This document shows, piece by piece, positions 17,622 through 26,098 of a stretch of 64,000 nt of DNA. The stretch is taken from NCBI RefSeq assembly GCF_032191465.1, contig NZ_JAQOUE010000002.1, positions 434,001-498,000 of the forward strand, in the 5' to 3' direction. Each line of letters begins with the position of its first letter. Position 1 is the stretch's first letter. The stretch comes from Candidatus Nitronereus thalassa. Its GTDB lineage: Bacteria; Nitrospirota; Nitrospiria; Nitrospirales; UBA8639. A program made the translations under genes and the position numbers. The notes under the pieces are model-generated. The model was not told where the DNA came from, ran no database searches, and saw nothing but the letters and a program-made list of their open reading frames with translations.

Positions 17622-17816
17622 ATGAAAATTCATCTCACCAATCCCACCAAAGAGCTGGACATTCAAGGTCCCATGCGTGTGAAACAACTGCTTGAGCACT
17701 TGCAGCTCACCCCGGAAGCCCACCTGGTGATCCGTGGGGATGAACTTGTCACAGAAGATGAAAAGTTGAACGACGGTGATACGATTGAAATCCGTTCAGT
17801 CATATCAGGAGGATAG
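17622..17816 (+). CDS. Ubiquitin-like sulfur carrier (ThiS/MoaD/TtuB family)
   Basis: A 64-residue beta-grasp protein ending in the diagnostic Gly-Gly (RSVISGG), where sulfur is carried as a thiocarboxylate. MKIHLTNPTKELDI and the LNDGDTIEIRSVISGG strand are typical of the family. The gene immediately downstream (8 bases) is a TtuA-type tRNA thiolase, so this is more likely the TtuB-like donor for tRNA 2-thiolation than a thiamin or molybdopterin carrier. No adenylating enzyme is adjacent, so one encoded elsewhere would have to activate it. Confidence 0.85.
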   Translation: MKIHLTNPTKELDIQGPMRVKQLLEHLQLTPEAHLVIRGDELVTEDEKLNDGDTIEIRSVISGG

Positions 17817-17824
17817 TCCCCTGC

Positions 17825-18757
17825 ATGCGTTGTAAGAAATGTCCACAGCAAGCAGCCATCAAGCTCCCTCAGCATAATGCGGCCTACTGCAAGACATGCT
17901 TTACGGAATTCGTTCACTCCCAAGTTGCCAAAGCCATCAAAAAGCAAAAAATGTTTTCCCACGACGACCGCATCCTGGTGGCGGTTTCTGGAGGAAAAGA
18001 CAGCATGGCACTCTGGGCCATTTTGCTGAAATTAGGGTACCGGGCCGACGCCCTGTACGTGGATTTGGGCATTGGCAACTATTCCATGCAGTCTCGCCAG
18101 AAGGTCGAACATTTCAATGATTCAGTAGCCCAACCCTTGGGAGCCACACTCCAAATTCATACGTTGGCTGAAAACGAAGGGGCGGGCGTCAAAGAACTCG
18201 CTATGATGATCAATCGCCCAACATGTTCAGCCTGTGGAACCATGAAGCGCTATCATTTTAATAGGACAGCGTTGGAAAAAGACTACGATGTGATGGCCAC
18301 CGGCCATAATTTGGATGACGAGGCCTCAAGATTATTAGGCAACGTTCTCCACTGGCAGACAGATTTTTTAGAGAAGCAAACGCCCACCCTTCCAGCATCC
18401 TTGGACGGATTCGCGAAAAAGGTCAAACCCCTGTATCGGTTAACCGAGCGTGAAATGGCGGCATATGCCATCATCAATAAGATTGCTTACATCGTCGATG
18501 AATGCCCCATGTCCAAGGGCTCAAAGATGCTGGTGTATAAAGATGTGCTCAATCGATTGGAAGAAGCTTCGCCAGGGACCAAACAAGTGTTTTATTTCCA
18601 ATTTCTTGATAAACAAGCCAAGGAACAAGCCGCCACTCAAAACATTACAGCACAAGATCAGAGTCGCCTCTCTCCCTGCCACTCCTGCGGACAACCGACT
18701 TCCATGGAAGTCTGCACCTACTGTAAAATGATGACCAAAGCCAAAGCCGCCGTTTAG
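17825..18757 (+). CDS. TtuA-type tRNA 2-thiouridine synthetase
   Basis: A 310-residue enzyme of the TtcA/TtuA family, which adenylates a tRNA uridine and inserts sulfur. An N-terminal zinc finger is formed by Cys3, Cys6, Cys22 and Cys25; the PP-loop SGGKDS lies at residues 55-60; and a three-cysteine set compatible with a [4Fe-4S] cluster is at Cys134, Cys137 and Cys227. A second finger (CHSCG and CTYC) closes the C-terminus. Two zinc fingers around the catalytic domain are the TtuA arrangement; TtcA lacks them. The upstream carrier gene supports the assignment. TtuA is best known from thermophiles, where it makes 2-thioribothymidine at tRNA position 54; the target here is inferred. Confidence 0.88.
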   Translation: MRCKKCPQQAAIKLPQHNAAYCKTCFTEFVHSQVAKAIKKQKMFSHDDRILVAVSGGKDSMALWAILLKLGYRADALYVDLGIGNYSMQSRQKVEHFNDSVAQPLGATLQIHTLAENEGAGVKELAMMINRPTCSACGTMKRYHFNRTALEKDYDVMATGHNLDDEASRLLGNVLHWQTDFLEKQTPTLPASLDGFAKKVKPLYRLTEREMAAYAIINKIAYIVDECPMSKGSKMLVYKDVLNRLEEASPGTKQVFYFQFLDKQAKEQAATQNITAQDQSRLSPCHSCGQPTSMEVCTYCKMMTKAKAAV

Positions 18758-18964: not shown

Positions 18965-21900
18965 TCAATCTTGGAGGGCTTGAAGATCTTCGGGTTGCTG
19001 TTCTTCTTGTCCAAAGAATGGAAACGATATGGGGGGCCACAGGTCTTCATCATCTGGTGGAGACCAAAAATTCACGAACAAATCCAATTCTGGATTGAAA
19101 GCCATCTTCAGTTCTTCGGATTGGGCCACTAACTGAAAGCGGTTTCCAAAAATGTTGGGTTCCAACGATTCAGACAGCAATTCTTGGGAAAGAGCGTCTT
19201 GGGGCGTCGAAGATCCTGAACCAAGATTCACCAACAAGGGGGGGGATGCCGTCCCGAGCAGGGTCTGGTGAACTTGGGTATAAATAATGGCCGGGGGAAT
19301 CGTGACTGCCCTGTTTTGAGCACTCGTTGAGGCCGAACTCTGAGCAGCAGCCGAAGAACCGAAAATGGAAAACCCATTCAAGGTGTACGGGCCGGCCCCC
19401 TTGGCCCCAATGAAGGTCACCGCACTAGCCGCCGCCTGATTGGCTAACCCATTGAGGGTTCCAGTTAAGATGGCGCTCGTTCCAGAAATCTGTAAGGCCG
19501 TAGCAGTAAGTGCCCCGGTCAGCGCCCCACCCGACATCAGGTTCAACGTACCCGCAGTCGCCCCGCTAATCCCATTCACCAACCCAAGAGCATAGCCGGT
19601 CGTCTCAGTATAATTCACTATCTGGCCCGCGGCATTAATGGCCAATGTCGTAACATTTTGCTGAGCATCACTGAAAGTGACGGTACCGCCCGCCGTTACT
19701 GCCAGGCTATCTTCGATGATACCGCCCGCCGATGCCGTGACCGTGCTACCGGAACGAAGATCAAGTCCCGTGGCATTCGCGGCCGTGATATCAGCAGACA
19801 CGGTTAACGCCCCAGATGCCGAAGACCCAATGACCACGGTATCGGTCGTAATTTGATCAATTACGGTATTGGTAATTTCAAACCGATTCGCGATGGTGCC
19901 GTCGGTACCCACATCAATCACATCCACATCGTTCGCTGTCTCAGGCGCTAGGGTAACTGACTGATTCGCCCCTGCGCTCGCCGTCAACGTACCGGGCAAA
20001 GAAATAATGTCGGAAATGATCGAGATGTTGCCTGCCAAGGATTCAACGTCTGCACCTACCTGAACGTCTACCGTTGCTTCGTTGGCCGCGGCGGTCAGCG
20101 TGATATTGCCACTCGCTTCCACATCGTTGGCCGCAGCAGTGTTGGATACTGTCAGCGTGCCTGTGGTGGCGGTTAATGCCACCGCTCCTGCATCTGTGTC
20201 TACGCCGGTCACGCCATTGACGGTCCCAACGCTGAAACCGTCGGCATCGGTGAACGTCACGCTGCCAGTACTTGTATCAATGGCCAAGGTATCGACATCG
20301 TTCGTTGCCGTATCAAGCGTGACTGCACCACCCGCCGTCACCGACAAGTTGGTCGTCGTTACGGCTTGGGCATCCGTCAAGGCCCCACCTGTCGTGAGAT
20401 TGAGCGTCGTGGAGGTCACCCCAACAACCCCATTCACCGTATCGATATTCAGATCGTCCGTATCACGGAAGCTCACCGTCCGGCCCGCCGCACTCACTGC
20501 GAGGTTGTCCACATCGGTCGTCGCAACATCCAAGGTTGTATCCGCGGCGGTGTTTGTGATCGAGAGGTTAGTCGCAGTAATCGCTTGGGCATCCGTCAAC
20601 GCCCCGCCCGTCGTCAGATTCAGCGTGGTGGCCGTCGCACCCACAATCCCATTCACCGTGTCGATATCCAGATCGTCGGTATCCACAAAGGTCACGGTCT
20701 GCCCTGCCGCACTCACTGCCAGGTTATCAACATCTGTGGTCGTGTCGCTGAAGTTAACGGCTCCGCCAGCGGTTACCGCCAAGTTCGTTTCCACGATACC
20801 TCCCGCCGTGCCCGTGATACTGCCCCCTGATTGCAGATGCAACGTCGTGGTATTCGCCGGCGTGATGTCAGCCTCAATTGTCATCGCGCCCGATGCGCTA
20901 GTGCCAATCACTAGGGTGCCAGCGGTGACGTTGTCGATATCGCTAGCGGCAAGTTCGAACCGATTAGCAGCACTCGGATCTGGACCCAGATCAATCACAT
21001 CCGCGTCGTTCACCGTTTCAGGGGCTAAGGTCACTGTACGCCCCGTATTGGTGATCGTCCCGGCGAGGTTGATATCATCGGCAGTGACGGTGATTGCGCC
21101 ACCGGACGATTCCACATCAGCCGTGGCCTGTATATCAACCAGGGCTTCATTAGCTGCCGCGGTCAGTGTAATGTCGCCGCTCGCTTCTACATCGTTAGCC
21201 GCGGCAGTGTTGGATACTGTCAGCGTGCCTGTGGTGGCGGTTAGTGCCACCGCTCCCGCATCTGTGTCTACGCCGGTCACACCATTGACGGTCCCGACGC
21301 TAAAGCCGTCGGCATCGGTAAATGTCACATTCCCGGTACTCGTATCAATCGCTAAAGTATCAACATCGTTCGTTGCCGTATCAAGCGTGACTGCACCACC
21401 AGCCGTTACCGACAAATTGGTCGCCGTCACGGCTTGGGCATCAGTCAAGGCCCCACCAGTGGTTAGATTCAAGGTCGCAGCGGTCACGCCATTAATACTG
21501 TTGACAGTATCGATATCCAGGTCATCCACATCACGGAACGTCACCGTCCGGCCGGACGCACTCACCGCTAGATTGTCCACATCATTGGTCGCCACGTCCA
21601 AGGTGGTATCCGCTGCCGTGTTCGTGATCGAAAGGTTGGTAGCCGTAATCGCCTGGGCATCCGTCAAGGCTCCACCTGTCGTTAGATTGAGAGTCCCGGC
21701 TGTCACCCCTATCACACCATTAACGGTATCGAGATCGAGATCGTCGGCATCCACAAACGTTACCGTCTGCCCCGGTGCACTGACGGCCAGGTTATCCACG
21801 TCCGTGGTCGCATCCGTAAAATTGACAGTTCCTCCTGCTGAAATAGCAAGATTCGTTTCTACGATTCCACCAGCAGTAGCAGTAATCCCCGCCCCGGATT

Positions 21901-23881
21901 GTAAATGCAGCGTGGTCGTGTTCGCCGGTGTAATATCACTGGAAATGGTTATGGCGCCCGACGTGGCATCACCGATTTTAATGACACCAGCGGTAATCCT
22001 GTCTAGCTCAGTGGTACTGAGATTGAGGTTCGATGACGTTCCGCCTACGTCCGTGCCGCCGACAGCCGCCAGAAGGGTGGTACTTCCCGCACCGGAATTG
22101 ACTGCTGAGGTTCCGTCAATCGTCATGTCAAAAGCTTTCATCGAAATATTCGCCCCACCGCTATTCACCGTCACTCCAGCGGCAAGGGTTAGACTACCGG
22201 CCCCTGATGCGTCGTCATCGGCTGATAAGGTGATGGCTCCCGCATTGGTCGTGATATCGGCATTCACACTAATATCATCCTGAGCTTGAGCAGTGAACGT
22301 TGCACCGGCTGTGGTCAAGTTTACAGCGTTTATAAAGCTAATATCTGCGGTGGCTTGCAAAGTGACGTTTCCCGCGACAGCATCGAGGGTGGCTGGAGCA
22401 ATGGTGAGCGAAGAACCCGGATTGTCAGCAAATGCATCGACATCGCCCGCCGCCGCGGTGCCACCAGTAATGACAATAATATTTAATGGGTCGAGCAACA
22501 GCGTACCGAAGTCACCATGGACGGCGGAAAGATTCGCAGTTCCCTGGAAATCCAGGTTTTGTTTACCGGACACTTCAGCAAAGCCGCCATTTCCGCCGAA
22601 TTCACCGCCGCGCACGTCGATATTCCCATAGTACCGGGATATCTCGTCCGCCCAGACAATTACCCGCCCACCGTCGCCAGCCGCTTTGGCATGCGCATTA
22701 ATTGTTACGTCCTCACCAAGGTACGTTTTTTTGGCATTCTGCTCTGGTCCATTACCTTGGAAGTTGCCTCCGATCAGCACTTCGCCCCCGCCAGCTTCCC
22801 CAGATGCATTCACGATCGCATCACCGAACAAGCCGACTTTTTCGCCCAGTACTTTTATAATCCCGCCTTTTTCATCAACATCATCGCCTGAAGCTTTCAA
22901 TGTCCCTGCTACTTCCACGACACCCAGGTCACCGCCGGACAACACGATTTGCCCATTGACCTCTGCCACGCTATTGGCTTGGACAATACCATCCATGTTG
23001 ATCACTCGATCCAGAATATTTGTCACTGTCTGCGCCGTGAGCAATACTGTGCCACCATCAGCCTGAATCGTCCCAGAATTATTGACCAGCCCTTTCAACG
23101 GGGTTCCGTCAGGCGCAAAGAGCTGTTGGGATGTTTGAGCATCCACCGGCAACTTCACGAGGCCATCCCCAAATAAGTCGAGCGTAAAACCATCCCCCGA
23201 GGCCAGGGACACCGTACCGAGTCTCGCTTGAATCACGCCGGTATTTTCAACTCCAGGCCCAACCAGTGCGACTAATCCACCTTCGGCAGCCGTGATGGTC
23301 CCACGGTTCACGATGGTCGCTGCGGGGTTACTCATCTGATCGAAGGTAAAATCATTGGCAAGGATGCGTTCGTTGGAGATATCGATGGTGGTTGCAATGA
23401 GACTATTCACGTCAACTCTAGACCCAGCTCCAAATAAAATGCCGTTGGGATTGATGAGCATGAGTCGTCCATTGGCGGTAAGTTGCCCTAAAATACTGGA
23501 AGACTCATTGCCTATCACACGATTGACGGCAAGCGAAGTGGAGGACGGTTGAGAGAAAGTCACACTTTCCGCGGCGCCAATAGAAAAACTGGTCCAGTCG
23601 ATAATGGCCTTGTCGGTATGTTGTTGTATCGTGAGGTGGGAAGGATCGGTGCGATCTACATCGGCGGCACCATGGACGATCGTTTCCCCAGTAGGATTCG
23701 CAATAAGGCTATTGGGCTGAAACACAAGCCCGACCCACAAGATAAAACAGAAAATTCCTAAAGTCTTTGGAGGAGGTCCTTGCCCAGTGGCAGCAATAAT
23801 GTGTGATGATTTATATGAATGTCGTAATTGACAACCCCATTGGGCTCTAGGGCAACAAAGGGATGAGGAAATTCGGAACAA
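18965..23881 (-). CDS. Filamentous-haemagglutinin-type two-partner secretion exoprotein (TpsA)
   Basis: A very large secreted protein (up to 1638 residues). After a hydrophobic signal (LGIFCFILWVGLVF) comes the TPS secretion domain: NPTGETIVHG, TDKAIIDWTSFSIG, VTFSQPSSTSLAVNRV, GRLMLINPNGILFGAGSRV. The rest is a Ala/Thr/Val/Asp-rich beta-helix with long near-identical repeats; a C-terminal region of about 130 residues is not repetitive (LDLFVNFWSPPDDEDLW). No cysteine-rich or toxin domain is recognised, so surface adhesion or biofilm structure is the likely role. The 5' limit is uncertain: the only start upstream of the signal is a TTG at 23881 without a good ribosome site. Its transporter gene lies 216 bases upstream. 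Confidence 0.88.
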   Translation of the reverse strand: MFRISSSLCCPRAQWGCQLRHSYKSSHIIAATGQGPPPKTLGIFCFILWVGLVFQPNSLIANPTGETIVHGAADVDRTDPSHLTIQQHTDKAIIDWTSFSIGAAESVTFSQPSSTSLAVNRVIGNESSSILGQLTANGRLMLINPNGILFGAGSRVDVNSLIATTIDISNERILANDFTFDQMSNPAATIVNRGTITAAEGGLVALVGPGVENTGVIQARLGTVSLASGDGFTLDLFGDGLVKLPVDAQTSQQLFAPDGTPLKGLVNNSGTIQADGGTVLLTAQTVTNILDRVINMDGIVQANSVAEVNGQIVLSGGDLGVVEVAGTLKASGDDVDEKGGIIKVLGEKVGLFGDAIVNASGEAGGGEVLIGGNFQGNGPEQNAKKTYLGEDVTINAHAKAAGDGGRVIVWADEISRYYGNIDVRGGEFGGNGGFAEVSGKQNLDFQGTANLSAVHGDFGTLLLDPLNIIVITGGTAAAGDVDAFADNPGSSLTIAPATLDAVAGNVTLQATADISFINAVNLTTAGATFTAQAQDDISVNADITTNAGAITLSADDDASGAGSLTLAAGVTVNSGGANISMKAFDMTIDGTSAVNSGAGSTTLLAAVGGTDVGGTSSNLNLSTTELDRITAGVIKIGDATSGAITISSDITPANTTTLHLQSGAGITATAGGIVETNLAISAGGTVNFTDATTDVDNLAVSAPGQTVTFVDADDLDLDTVNGVIGVTAGTLNLTTGGALTDAQAITATNLSITNTAADTTLDVATNDVDNLAVSASGRTVTFRDVDDLDIDTVNSINGVTAATLNLTTGGALTDAQAVTATNLSVTAGGAVTLDTATNDVDTLAIDTSTGNVTFTDADGFSVGTVNGVTGVDTDAGAVALTATTGTLTVSNTAAANDVEASGDITLTAAANEALVDIQATADVESSGGAITVTADDINLAGTITNTGRTVTLAPETVNDADVIDLGPDPSAANRFELAASDIDNVTAGTLVIGTSASGAMTIEADITPANTTTLHLQSGGSITGTAGGIVETNLAVTAGGAVNFSDTTTDVDNLAVSAAGQTVTFVDTDDLDIDTVNGIVGATATTLNLTTGGALTDAQAITATNLSITNTAADTTLDVATTDVDNLAVSAAGRTVSFRDTDDLNIDTVNGVVGVTSTTLNLTTGGALTDAQAVTTTNLSVTAGGAVTLDTATNDVDTLAIDTSTGSVTFTDADGFSVGTVNGVTGVDTDAGAVALTATTGTLTVSNTAAANDVEASGNITLTAAANEATVDVQVGADVESLAGNISIISDIISLPGTLTASAGANQSVTLAPETANDVDVIDVGTDGTIANRFEITNTVIDQITTDTVVIGSSASGALTVSADITAANATGLDLRSGSTVTASAGGIIEDSLAVTAGGTVTFSDAQQNVTTLAINAAGQIVNYTETTGYALGLVNGISGATAGTLNLMSGGALTGALTATALQISGTSAILTGTLNGLANQAAASAVTFIGAKGAGPYTLNGFSIFGSSAAAQSSASTSAQNRAVTIPPAIIYTQVHQTLLGTASPPLLVNLGSGSSTPQDALSQELLSESLEPNIFGNRFQLVAQSEELKMAFNPELDLFVNFWSPPDDEDLWPPISFPFFGQEEQQPEDLQALQD
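19700..21960. repeat. Tandem internal repeats of about 1068 bp in the TpsA gene
   Basis: Long near-identical blocks recur at a spacing of 1068 bp (356 codons). For example, the GTTGGATACTGTCAGCGTGC block occurs at 20141 and again at 21209. Two copies are close to identical, and a third, more diverged unit follows at the lower-coordinate end. Within each unit shorter motifs such as LNLTTGGALTDAQA recur. The boundaries are approximate. Confidence 0.8.
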
Positions 23882-24097
23882 TTAGGCACCACCCAAAAGA
23901 TAAGGTATGGATCTTCGTCAAAACTTCTTAACCTCAAGCGCCAGGTATAAATGCCCGTTTTGACGATACAGTAGCATCTTATAGTCAGTTCGGTTATTTT
24001 ATGTGCCATCTTAAGTATCACTATCTAGAAAAAGATCATGAAACCAATATCCTACATGGCCACTTAGGCAAAAGACTGTAGATGGTGCGATGGCTAC

Positions 24098-25870
24098 TCA
24101 ATACCGGATCGCCAAGCTGAAAAAAACCCTGGGATCTTTCCCATCCCCAGTGACCTGTGTCGTCACACGCCGCGTAAGAGGTTGTGCCACTTCAATATAG
24201 CCAGAAAACCAATCGGTGAAATTCGCACGAATACCCCCTCCCGCTGAAGACACGGAAGCCTTATTCGAATTCTCAACCTGATACACCACACCCAGGTCAT
24301 AAAACCCATACAATTGCATATCCCGCAGAACCGGCAGGGCCGTCGTGTTTCCATACTGCAACTCGAGAATACCGGCCATTCCATGATCGCCGGTAATTTC
24401 CGAGGGATCATATCCCCGCCCCATAAACGCTCCCCCTACGGCAAACTCTTCCGGAGATAGCAATGGAACCGCCGCATATTGCGCCTTGCCGGCAAAGAAT
24501 ATATTGACACGATTGATCAACGGCTGAAGTCGGGAGAGCTCTCCTCGCACCTTGGTAAAGTCACTATGTCCTCCAGCGCGAGAAAGAGTACTCGAGGCTT
24601 GATCGGAATGATTCAAAATTTCCAGTCCCTTCGCAATCATCAATTCAAAAGACGTAATGGCTCGAAATCGATCCACAAAGTCATAGTGAGCGCTGAACTG
24701 GAGGCTACGGATTCGATCCTCGGCTAGTCGAGCACTCAAGAGATCCGTCTTGGTATTGATAAAGGAAAACTGTGACGTCACAAAAAGGTTTTGGGCTCGA
24801 GACCGAATGATCGGGTGGGTGAGCCCGATAGCAAACCTCACGGCACTGCTCTCCACGTTCAACGCCCGTAGCGTAAAGCCCGGCTCTGAATCAGTATAGT
24901 TAAAATTTATGGAGAACTGGGTGCCTTCATCCGAAATTGGTTGCTGATGGTTCAGCGCCACGTAGGTGAGCTCTCGACGAGCCTGATCCGACTCTGGGCT
25001 GCCCGTCACGAATTGCGCCGTGGTTCTTTCGCCCCAACCCCAGAATGAGTTGAGCCCGGCAAACGCAGTAATCTGCAATGGACCGACGAATAACGTGCCT
25101 CGATTATTCACGTTCAACGCGGCATTCACTGGCCGGTATCGAAGCTGAATCACAAGTTCCGACGCACCAGGAACGGCCTTATCAGGACGCAGCACACTTT
25201 CCGCATAAAATCCCGGGAGATCACGTATGAACAGCAGGTACCGTTCTAAGTCCGACGAATGAAGGGGACGGGATTGTTCGATCTTCGCACGATAAGCATG
25301 AATGAGCTTCGGGACTTCATACCCCTGACTGTCAATGACCACCTTGTTGATATAGCCTTCAATAATCCGAATGTTGACCACTCCCCCTTCAATTTTTTGG
25401 GGAGGTAAAATGGCTCGTGAAAGAATATAGCCATCATTCCGGTATTTTGCAGTGATGGCATTCGTGAGGTTATAGATGATGCGGAGGGAAATTCTCTTCC
25501 CAATGTAATTTTTGTACAGGGGAAGAACATCAGTCTCCTGGTAGACCGTCGATCCCTCCAGGATAATTCGGGCCAAGGTGAAGATGATCGTGTCGGCATT
25601 ATCCGGGGGAACCACATCATCATCGCGTTCCGGCACGATGGGTTTAATGACGGACTTCGGTTCTTTTTTCTGTTCAAATCGTTTTTCAATTTGCCCTGGC
25701 TCGGCGGACTGAGGAATCGTCTGGGCTTGAGCACTCAGGAAACTGCTAAATAGAACGAGACTCAGCGCTGCACAGAAGGCGAACTTTGGAAAGATAGATC
25801 GGTAAGATGGTAGGAATGGATGAACATTAGCCGCATGACTGAAAATTTTCTGAGTGGAAATCACACGCAT
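24098..25870 (-). CDS. Two-partner secretion outer-membrane transporter (FhaC/ShlB-type TpsB)
   Basis: An Omp85-superfamily pore of about 590 residues that exports the adjacent TpsA protein. A signal peptide (FCAALSLVLFSSFLSAQAQ) is followed by a Pro/Lys/Glu-rich linker, then two POTRA-like regions (FTLARIILEGSTVYQETDVLPLY..., and GGVVNIRIIEGYINKVVID...), and a beta-barrel of about 370 residues ending in a typical aromatic C-terminus (RVFFSLAIRY). FMGRGYDPSEITGDHG corresponds to the conserved VRGY/F-type motif of the L6 loop region. I chose the ATG at 25870; the frame extends to a TTG at 25882. It is the first gene of the pair with TpsA. Confidence 0.9.
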   Translation of the reverse strand: MRVISTQKIFSHAANVHPFLPSYRSIFPKFAFCAALSLVLFSSFLSAQAQTIPQSAEPGQIEKRFEQKKEPKSVIKPIVPERDDDVVPPDNADTIIFTLARIILEGSTVYQETDVLPLYKNYIGKRISLRIIYNLTNAITAKYRNDGYILSRAILPPQKIEGGVVNIRIIEGYINKVVIDSQGYEVPKLIHAYRAKIEQSRPLHSSDLERYLLFIRDLPGFYAESVLRPDKAVPGASELVIQLRYRPVNAALNVNNRGTLFVGPLQITAFAGLNSFWGWGERTTAQFVTGSPESDQARRELTYVALNHQQPISDEGTQFSINFNYTDSEPGFTLRALNVESSAVRFAIGLTHPIIRSRAQNLFVTSQFSFINTKTDLLSARLAEDRIRSLQFSAHYDFVDRFRAITSFELMIAKGLEILNHSDQASSTLSRAGGHSDFTKVRGELSRLQPLINRVNIFFAGKAQYAAVPLLSPEEFAVGGAFMGRGYDPSEITGDHGMAGILELQYGNTTALPVLRDMQLYGFYDLGVVYQVENSNKASVSSAGGGIRANFTDWFSGYIEVAQPLTRRVTTQVTGDGKDPRVFFSLAIRY

Positions 25871-26098
25871 GCGGTTCAACAAGGCAGCAGGTAAGGATCA
25901 GGTTGGCCAACCAATCCTGTTTAATGGCCACAATTTTCAAACGAGGACATGCTACACTATTTACCTGCCGCAAAAACAGGAGTTTTCTACGAAAGACCTG
26001 ACAAATCGACACCGGAGATTCCTACTTAGTCTTGAACACCATGAACAAACATTCCATACAACAACGAGGAAAAATCGCTTCGCTTGGCACCATTCCCT

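Follow-up and report, generated by a model that had tools for sequence, protein, structure and literature searches.

The window, by which we mean the whole analysed stretch of 64,000 nucleotides, carries two adjacent genes on its plus strand, ttuB and ttuA. The former (17622..17816) encodes a 64-residue sulfur carrier with a ThiS/ubiquitin-like fold and a tail ending in Gly-Gly (...SVISGG), as assigned from the open reading frame, Pfam, a PDB match and a 19-row alignment. The latter (17825..18757) encodes a tRNA 2-thiouridine synthase of the TtuA type, 310 residues long, which was recognised by the profile NF049949, a PDB match, a tree and the fold. Only 8 bases (17817-17824) lie between the ttuB stop codon and the ATG of ttuA, and the arrangement described in the first-pass annotation, a short Gly-Gly carrier followed after 8 bases by a thiolase, agrees with the two reading frames. 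Both genes are kept in the Nitrospirae MAG L002, the nearest named relative as judged by TtuA, where the carrier is 97% and the enzyme 91% identical, and a chance or pseudogene origin of the pair was rejected. No tRNA genes were found in the window by ARAGORN. Downstream of ttuA, the minus strand (18965-25882) encodes a two-partner-secretion exoprotein of 1638 residues, with a TPS domain and repeated VDNLAVSA-type segments, together with a ShlB/FhaC-type transporter.

The enzyme bears the full set of residues expected of its type. Its first zinc finger (17831..17899), recognised by Pfam TtuA_LIM_N and by alignment, comprises C3, C6, C22 and C25; in a 100-row alignment C3 and C6 are present in 99 rows (one has a gap) and C22 in all, and position 25 is Cys in 77 rows and His in 23. 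The PP-loop SGGKDS, which forms the ATP site (residues 55-60; 17987..18004), is found in 100/100 rows. The same is true of the three predicted [4Fe-4S] ligands, two of which belong to the motif C134-S-A-C137 (18224..18235; C130 and C133 in Thermus) and the third of which is Cys227 (18503..18505; Thermus C222). All four cysteines of the second zinc finger (C285, C288, C297 and C300; 18677..18724) are invariant in 21 rows. Thus, the two fingers, the PP-loop and the three cysteines claimed from the sequence at first reading are all present when the protein is aligned with TtuA rows. A further residue, Lys141 (18245..18247), is the counterpart of Thermus Lys137, described in PMC3980101 as a site of TtuB conjugation; this position is Lys in all 100 TtuA rows and Arg in NcsA and TtcA.

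Identification of the enzyme as TtuA is based on several concordant comparisons. Pfam matches to TtuA_LIM_N (37.8 bits) and ATP_bind_3 (49.5 bits) exceed the gathering scores. Among the family profiles, TtuA NF049949 gave 273.7 bits, NcsA 105.9 (cut-off 500) and TtcA 81.0 (cut-off 272), so that each score lies below the respective curated cut-off, which for NF049949 is 450 bits. The latter threshold was passed by none of 197 genomes of the phylum and by one of the six control genomes with a match, which indicates that the model, whose name refers to Pyrococcus, is narrow; we read the missed cut-off as a limit of the model and not of the family. In a PDB search the best scores were those of Thermus TtuA (5gha, E 5.4e-72) and Pyrococcus TtuA (5.6e-70), with Methanococcus NcsA following at 3.3e-21. 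An AlphaFold model (mean pLDDT 88.8) compared by Foldseek gave TM values of 0.84-0.89 with TtuA entries and 0.74-0.79 with NcsA. Finally, in a tree of 102 rows (93 different, identical proteins being kept), a 99/97 branch separates both characterised TtuAs and all fetched sequences from NcsA and the TtcA of this genome, an outgroup of two rows with long branches. Phylogeny against TtcA had been named beforehand as a possible refutation, and it did not place the enzyme with TtcA. Profile, PDB search, tree and fold rule out both TtcA and NcsA, and together with the catalytic residues they confirm the earlier match to TtuA.

The carrier matches Pfam ThiS above the gathering score (32.5 bits), and its best solved relative is Thermus TtuB (5ztb, E 9.3e-10). 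A ThiS or MoaD identity was ruled out by separate copies of both elsewhere in the genome: a ThiS (TIGR01683, 81 bits) beside genes that by eye resemble thiG and thiE, and a MoaD forming the N-end of a longer frame that is MoaE-like, again as named by eye. In some TtuB homologues (L014, L044, L047, L053, L054, L067 and L078) the frame extends from 1 to more than 20 residues past Gly-Gly, and these proteins would need trimming before activation.

The functional tail of TtuB may have a second use at the DNA level. The triplets for Ser-Gly-Gly in ttuB contain AGGAGG (17807..17812), a likely ribosome-binding site of ttuA that precedes its ATG by 12 bases. When ttuB matches reaching residue 62 were considered and identical genes counted once, GGAGG was present at the tail in 20 of 35 ttuB genes located at most 20 bases from ttuA, as against 0/25 of the others; the Fisher p value for this difference, 8e-7, is overstated because ttuB genes are related. 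These counts suggest that the codons of the TtuB tail double as the ribosome-binding site of the following gene.

The first-pass annotation had called for an activating enzyme to be sought elsewhere in the genome, and two candidates, both E1s of the MoeB type, were found. They are clustered (G000:C1:796637-801883, corresponding to L073:8637-13883) with two ThiS-fold carriers, a JAMM protease and, as named by eye, cysteine-synthase-like and threonine-synthase-like genes. Both carriers have residues after Gly-Gly (MGGGR and IAGGAHG), and the cluster has the look of a pathway for sulfur amino acids that uses carriers and trims their tails. At another site (G000:C1 near 2641414, L071) an E1-like protein is followed by a YcaO-like one, named by eye; this is possibly a thiazole/oxazole peptide locus.

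The presence of two E1s and a JAMM protease in one cluster, and the conjugation of Thermus TtuB to TtuA and TtuC described in PMC3980101, could be taken to mean that TtuB mainly modifies proteins or carries sulfur for a different thio-compound, TtuA being its target or side partner. We consider this highly improbable, as two other carriers are encoded within the E1/JAMM cluster itself and TtuB tracks TtuA across the phylum: among 197 genomes, each at least 80% complete, both were found in 82, TtuA only in 11, TtuB only in 3 and neither in 101. The two genes share a strand and are no more than 2 kb apart in 64 of the 82 genomes bearing both. All 11 genomes with TtuA only belong to one genus (g50) of family f23; these genomes, of which G070 is an example, have TtuA and TrmI and gave no match to TtuB or TrmFO. 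Their TtuA perhaps uses free sulfide.

A separate problem is the temperature at which the host lives. From amino acid composition (IVYWREL), with the longest non-overlapping frames taken as ORFs, rough temperatures were estimated: about 27 C for the genome analysed here, 29 C for a relative resembling Nitrospira and about 63 C for the f23 genome G070; the values for f26, f3 and f5 come from 13-14 ORFs each. In the tree, the window TtuA falls among Nitrospirales sequences. No 16S rRNA of this genome was detected with a covariance search, which gave matches in 9 of the 14 control genomes; phylogenetic placement of the host in this analysis is therefore that given by TtuA and kinship labels. For the cultured Nitrospira that it mentions, PMC13049253 gives optima between 28 and 42 C. 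Two lines, composition and kinship to Nitrospirales, indicate a probable mesophile, as the first-pass annotation had supposed.

The distribution of other tRNA modification genes bears directly on the target of the pair. TtuA was found in 93 of the 197 genomes. It was accompanied by TrmI, the m1A58 enzyme, in 92 of them (TtuA only 1, TrmI only 13, neither 91; by genus 27, 1, 6 and 65, in the order both, TtuA only, TrmI only, neither) and by TrmFO, the m5U54 enzyme, in 80 (TtuA only 13, TrmFO only 61, neither 43). The tie of TtuA to TrmI is thus much tighter than that to TrmFO, with the reservation that such counts are not independent of ancestry. Two Nitrospirales genomes that are 99% complete, G063 and G125, have neither TtuA nor TtuB and keep TrmI and TrmFO, an apparent joint loss.

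Gene order points the same way. Among 67 fetched loci, a sample biased by having been found with peptide patterns of the window TtuA itself, 21 have trmI immediately after ttuA; these comprise 21 of the 23 loci outside Nitrospirales (Manganitrophaceae, Actinomycetota, one Acidobacteria and one Chloroflexi) and none of the 44 within, some loci ending close behind ttuA. In the phylum sample, trmI follows ttuA within 2 kb in 7 genomes, all of the same class as the window and of other orders. In the genome analysed here trmI (98.2 bits) is unlinked to ttuA. Three of the fetched sequences, L054 and L064 (titled Bifidobacterium breve) and L063 (titled Nitrosospira), have a TtuA whose neighbours in the tree are of Acidimicrobiia type or from Nitrospira, and are probably mislabelled bins.

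According to PMC6418473, TtuA of Thermus transfers sulfur to U54 faster when TrmI has made m1A58. Together with this effect, co-occurrence and gene order point to the known target, position 54. The genome also encodes MnmA for U34 (228.9 bits) and TtcA for C32 (439.5 bits), and with its ThiS and MoaD this means that positions 34 and 32, thiamin and molybdopterin have parts of their own. One could still imagine that the pair acts like NcsA and thiolates the wobble U34 alongside MnmA, or that its site is another position in tRNA. NcsA is indeed a homologue with the same fold and zinc fingers, and of 24 genomes with TtuA, three (G006, G011 and G019) gave no full-strength match to MnmA (PF03054). 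However, those three are MAGs of which completeness is not established, MnmA is present at full strength in the other 21, tree, profile and Lys141 side with TtuA and not with NcsA, and the position of trmI relative to ttuA speaks for the T-loop. We therefore regard a U34 role as improbable. The suggestion of the first-pass annotation that such a host points to another target was not supported, MnmA and TtcA covering positions 34 and 32 and the TrmI partnership arguing for 54; such a target is not favoured here. Judged from its sequence, the window pair is a TtuB/TtuA system, and its most likely product is 5-methyl-2-thiouridine (m5s2U, s2T) at position 54 of tRNA, made by a mesophilic member of Nitrospirota.

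The methyl group of this product would depend on TrmFO, which is encoded in this genome (654.7 bits). In 6 of the 24 genomes with TtuA (G015, G017-G020 and G022) no TrmFO match was obtained, and in G014 the match is in pieces; hence m5U54 cannot be assumed everywhere. TrmFO is absent from the tested Actinomycetota, Acidobacteria and Chloroflexi genomes with TtuA, and in these, as in f23, the product may be s2U54 rather than m5s2U54.

Another possibility is that the pair is a relic of a thermophilic ancestor, or a recent acquisition by transfer, that is little expressed or useless. Some other members of the phylum that bear TtuA are suggested to be thermophilic by their IVYWREL values, as in f23, and 7 of 74 sampled genomes of the window's class have no TtuA, which indicates that it is dispensable and that the pathway can be lost. 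On the other hand, TtuA is present in the other 67, the catalytic residues are all kept, and Nitrospira retains ttuB even where it has become separated from ttuA, as it has in part of that genus. These facts make a useless relic very unlikely. In three of four loci examined (L074, L075 and L078, and not L077), the separated ttuB is preceded by a gene resembling poly(A) polymerase or CCA-adding enzyme, a designation tested with Pfam in L074 only.

For the preferred reading, thiolation of U54, the following course of events may be proposed. TrmFO would methylate U54 and TrmI A58, as their genes suggest. By analogy with Thermus, TtuB would be adenylated at its Gly-Gly end by one of the two MoeB-type E1s and converted into a thiocarboxylate with sulfur from a cysteine desulfurase. 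TtuA would then bind the T-arm, adenylate C2 of U54 at the PP-loop and pass the sulfur by way of a [4Fe-4S] cluster with Cys134, Cys137 and Cys227 as its ligands; the residues are in place, and the chemistry is presumed from them. The product, m5s2U54, would stiffen the tRNA elbow.

The enzyme pair itself is known; what is new is its host range, with an unexpected host. A statement in a review (PMC6313347) has it that the m5s2U54 nucleoside was found in thermophiles and not in mesophiles. The open-access literature, as far as its accessible text goes, yielded no description of the pathway for any mesophilic bacterium, which argues weakly for its absence there. It is plausible that the pair serves the cell in some way other than by allowing survival at 80 C or in extreme heat. 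More tentatively, and with slightly less than even confidence, we suggest that m5s2U54 is a standing modification in most mesophilic Nitrospiria (nitrite oxidisers and comammox), as s2U54 or m5s2U54 would be in Acidimicrobiia and some other mesophiles, made by a ttuB-ttuA-trmI T-loop unit. It could serve to tune tRNA elbow stiffness or half-life rather than survival of heat, and might be tied to oxygen or sulfide through the oxygen-sensitive Fe-S cluster of TtuA. The full enzyme set in a probable mesophile means that a sulfur mark on tRNA may serve beyond heat resistance. Should the nucleoside really be made, a 'thermophile' modification would prove to occur widely among nitrifiers of a class with global importance, and a new account of what it is for would be needed.

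Comparison with characterised systems places the window pair closest to that of Thermus thermophilus (5gha, 5ztb and 5b4e). Both have the same types of carrier and enzyme, the three Fe-S cysteines, the PP-loop, two zinc fingers, the lysine corresponding to Lys137 and the Gly-Gly tail. Identity of the TtuA proteins is about 40%, the first finger has His at position 25 in Thermus and Cys in the window, and the hosts differ, that of the window being probably a mesophile. TtuA of Pyrococcus horikoshii (PH0300; 3vrh and 5mkq) is alike in fold and residues (41% identity, TM 0.85-0.86) but comes from an archaeal hyperthermophile. The U34 thiolase NcsA of Methanococcus maripaludis (6scy) shares the superfamily, fold, zinc fingers and three cysteines; however, it is only 24% identical, lies across the 99/97 branch and has Arg in place of Lys141. 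The C32 thiolase TtcA, represented by the copy in this genome (L128), has the PP-loop and cysteines at the three positions, but it differs from the window enzyme in its far higher score with the TtcA profile and in gaps at finger positions 3 and 6 of TtuA.
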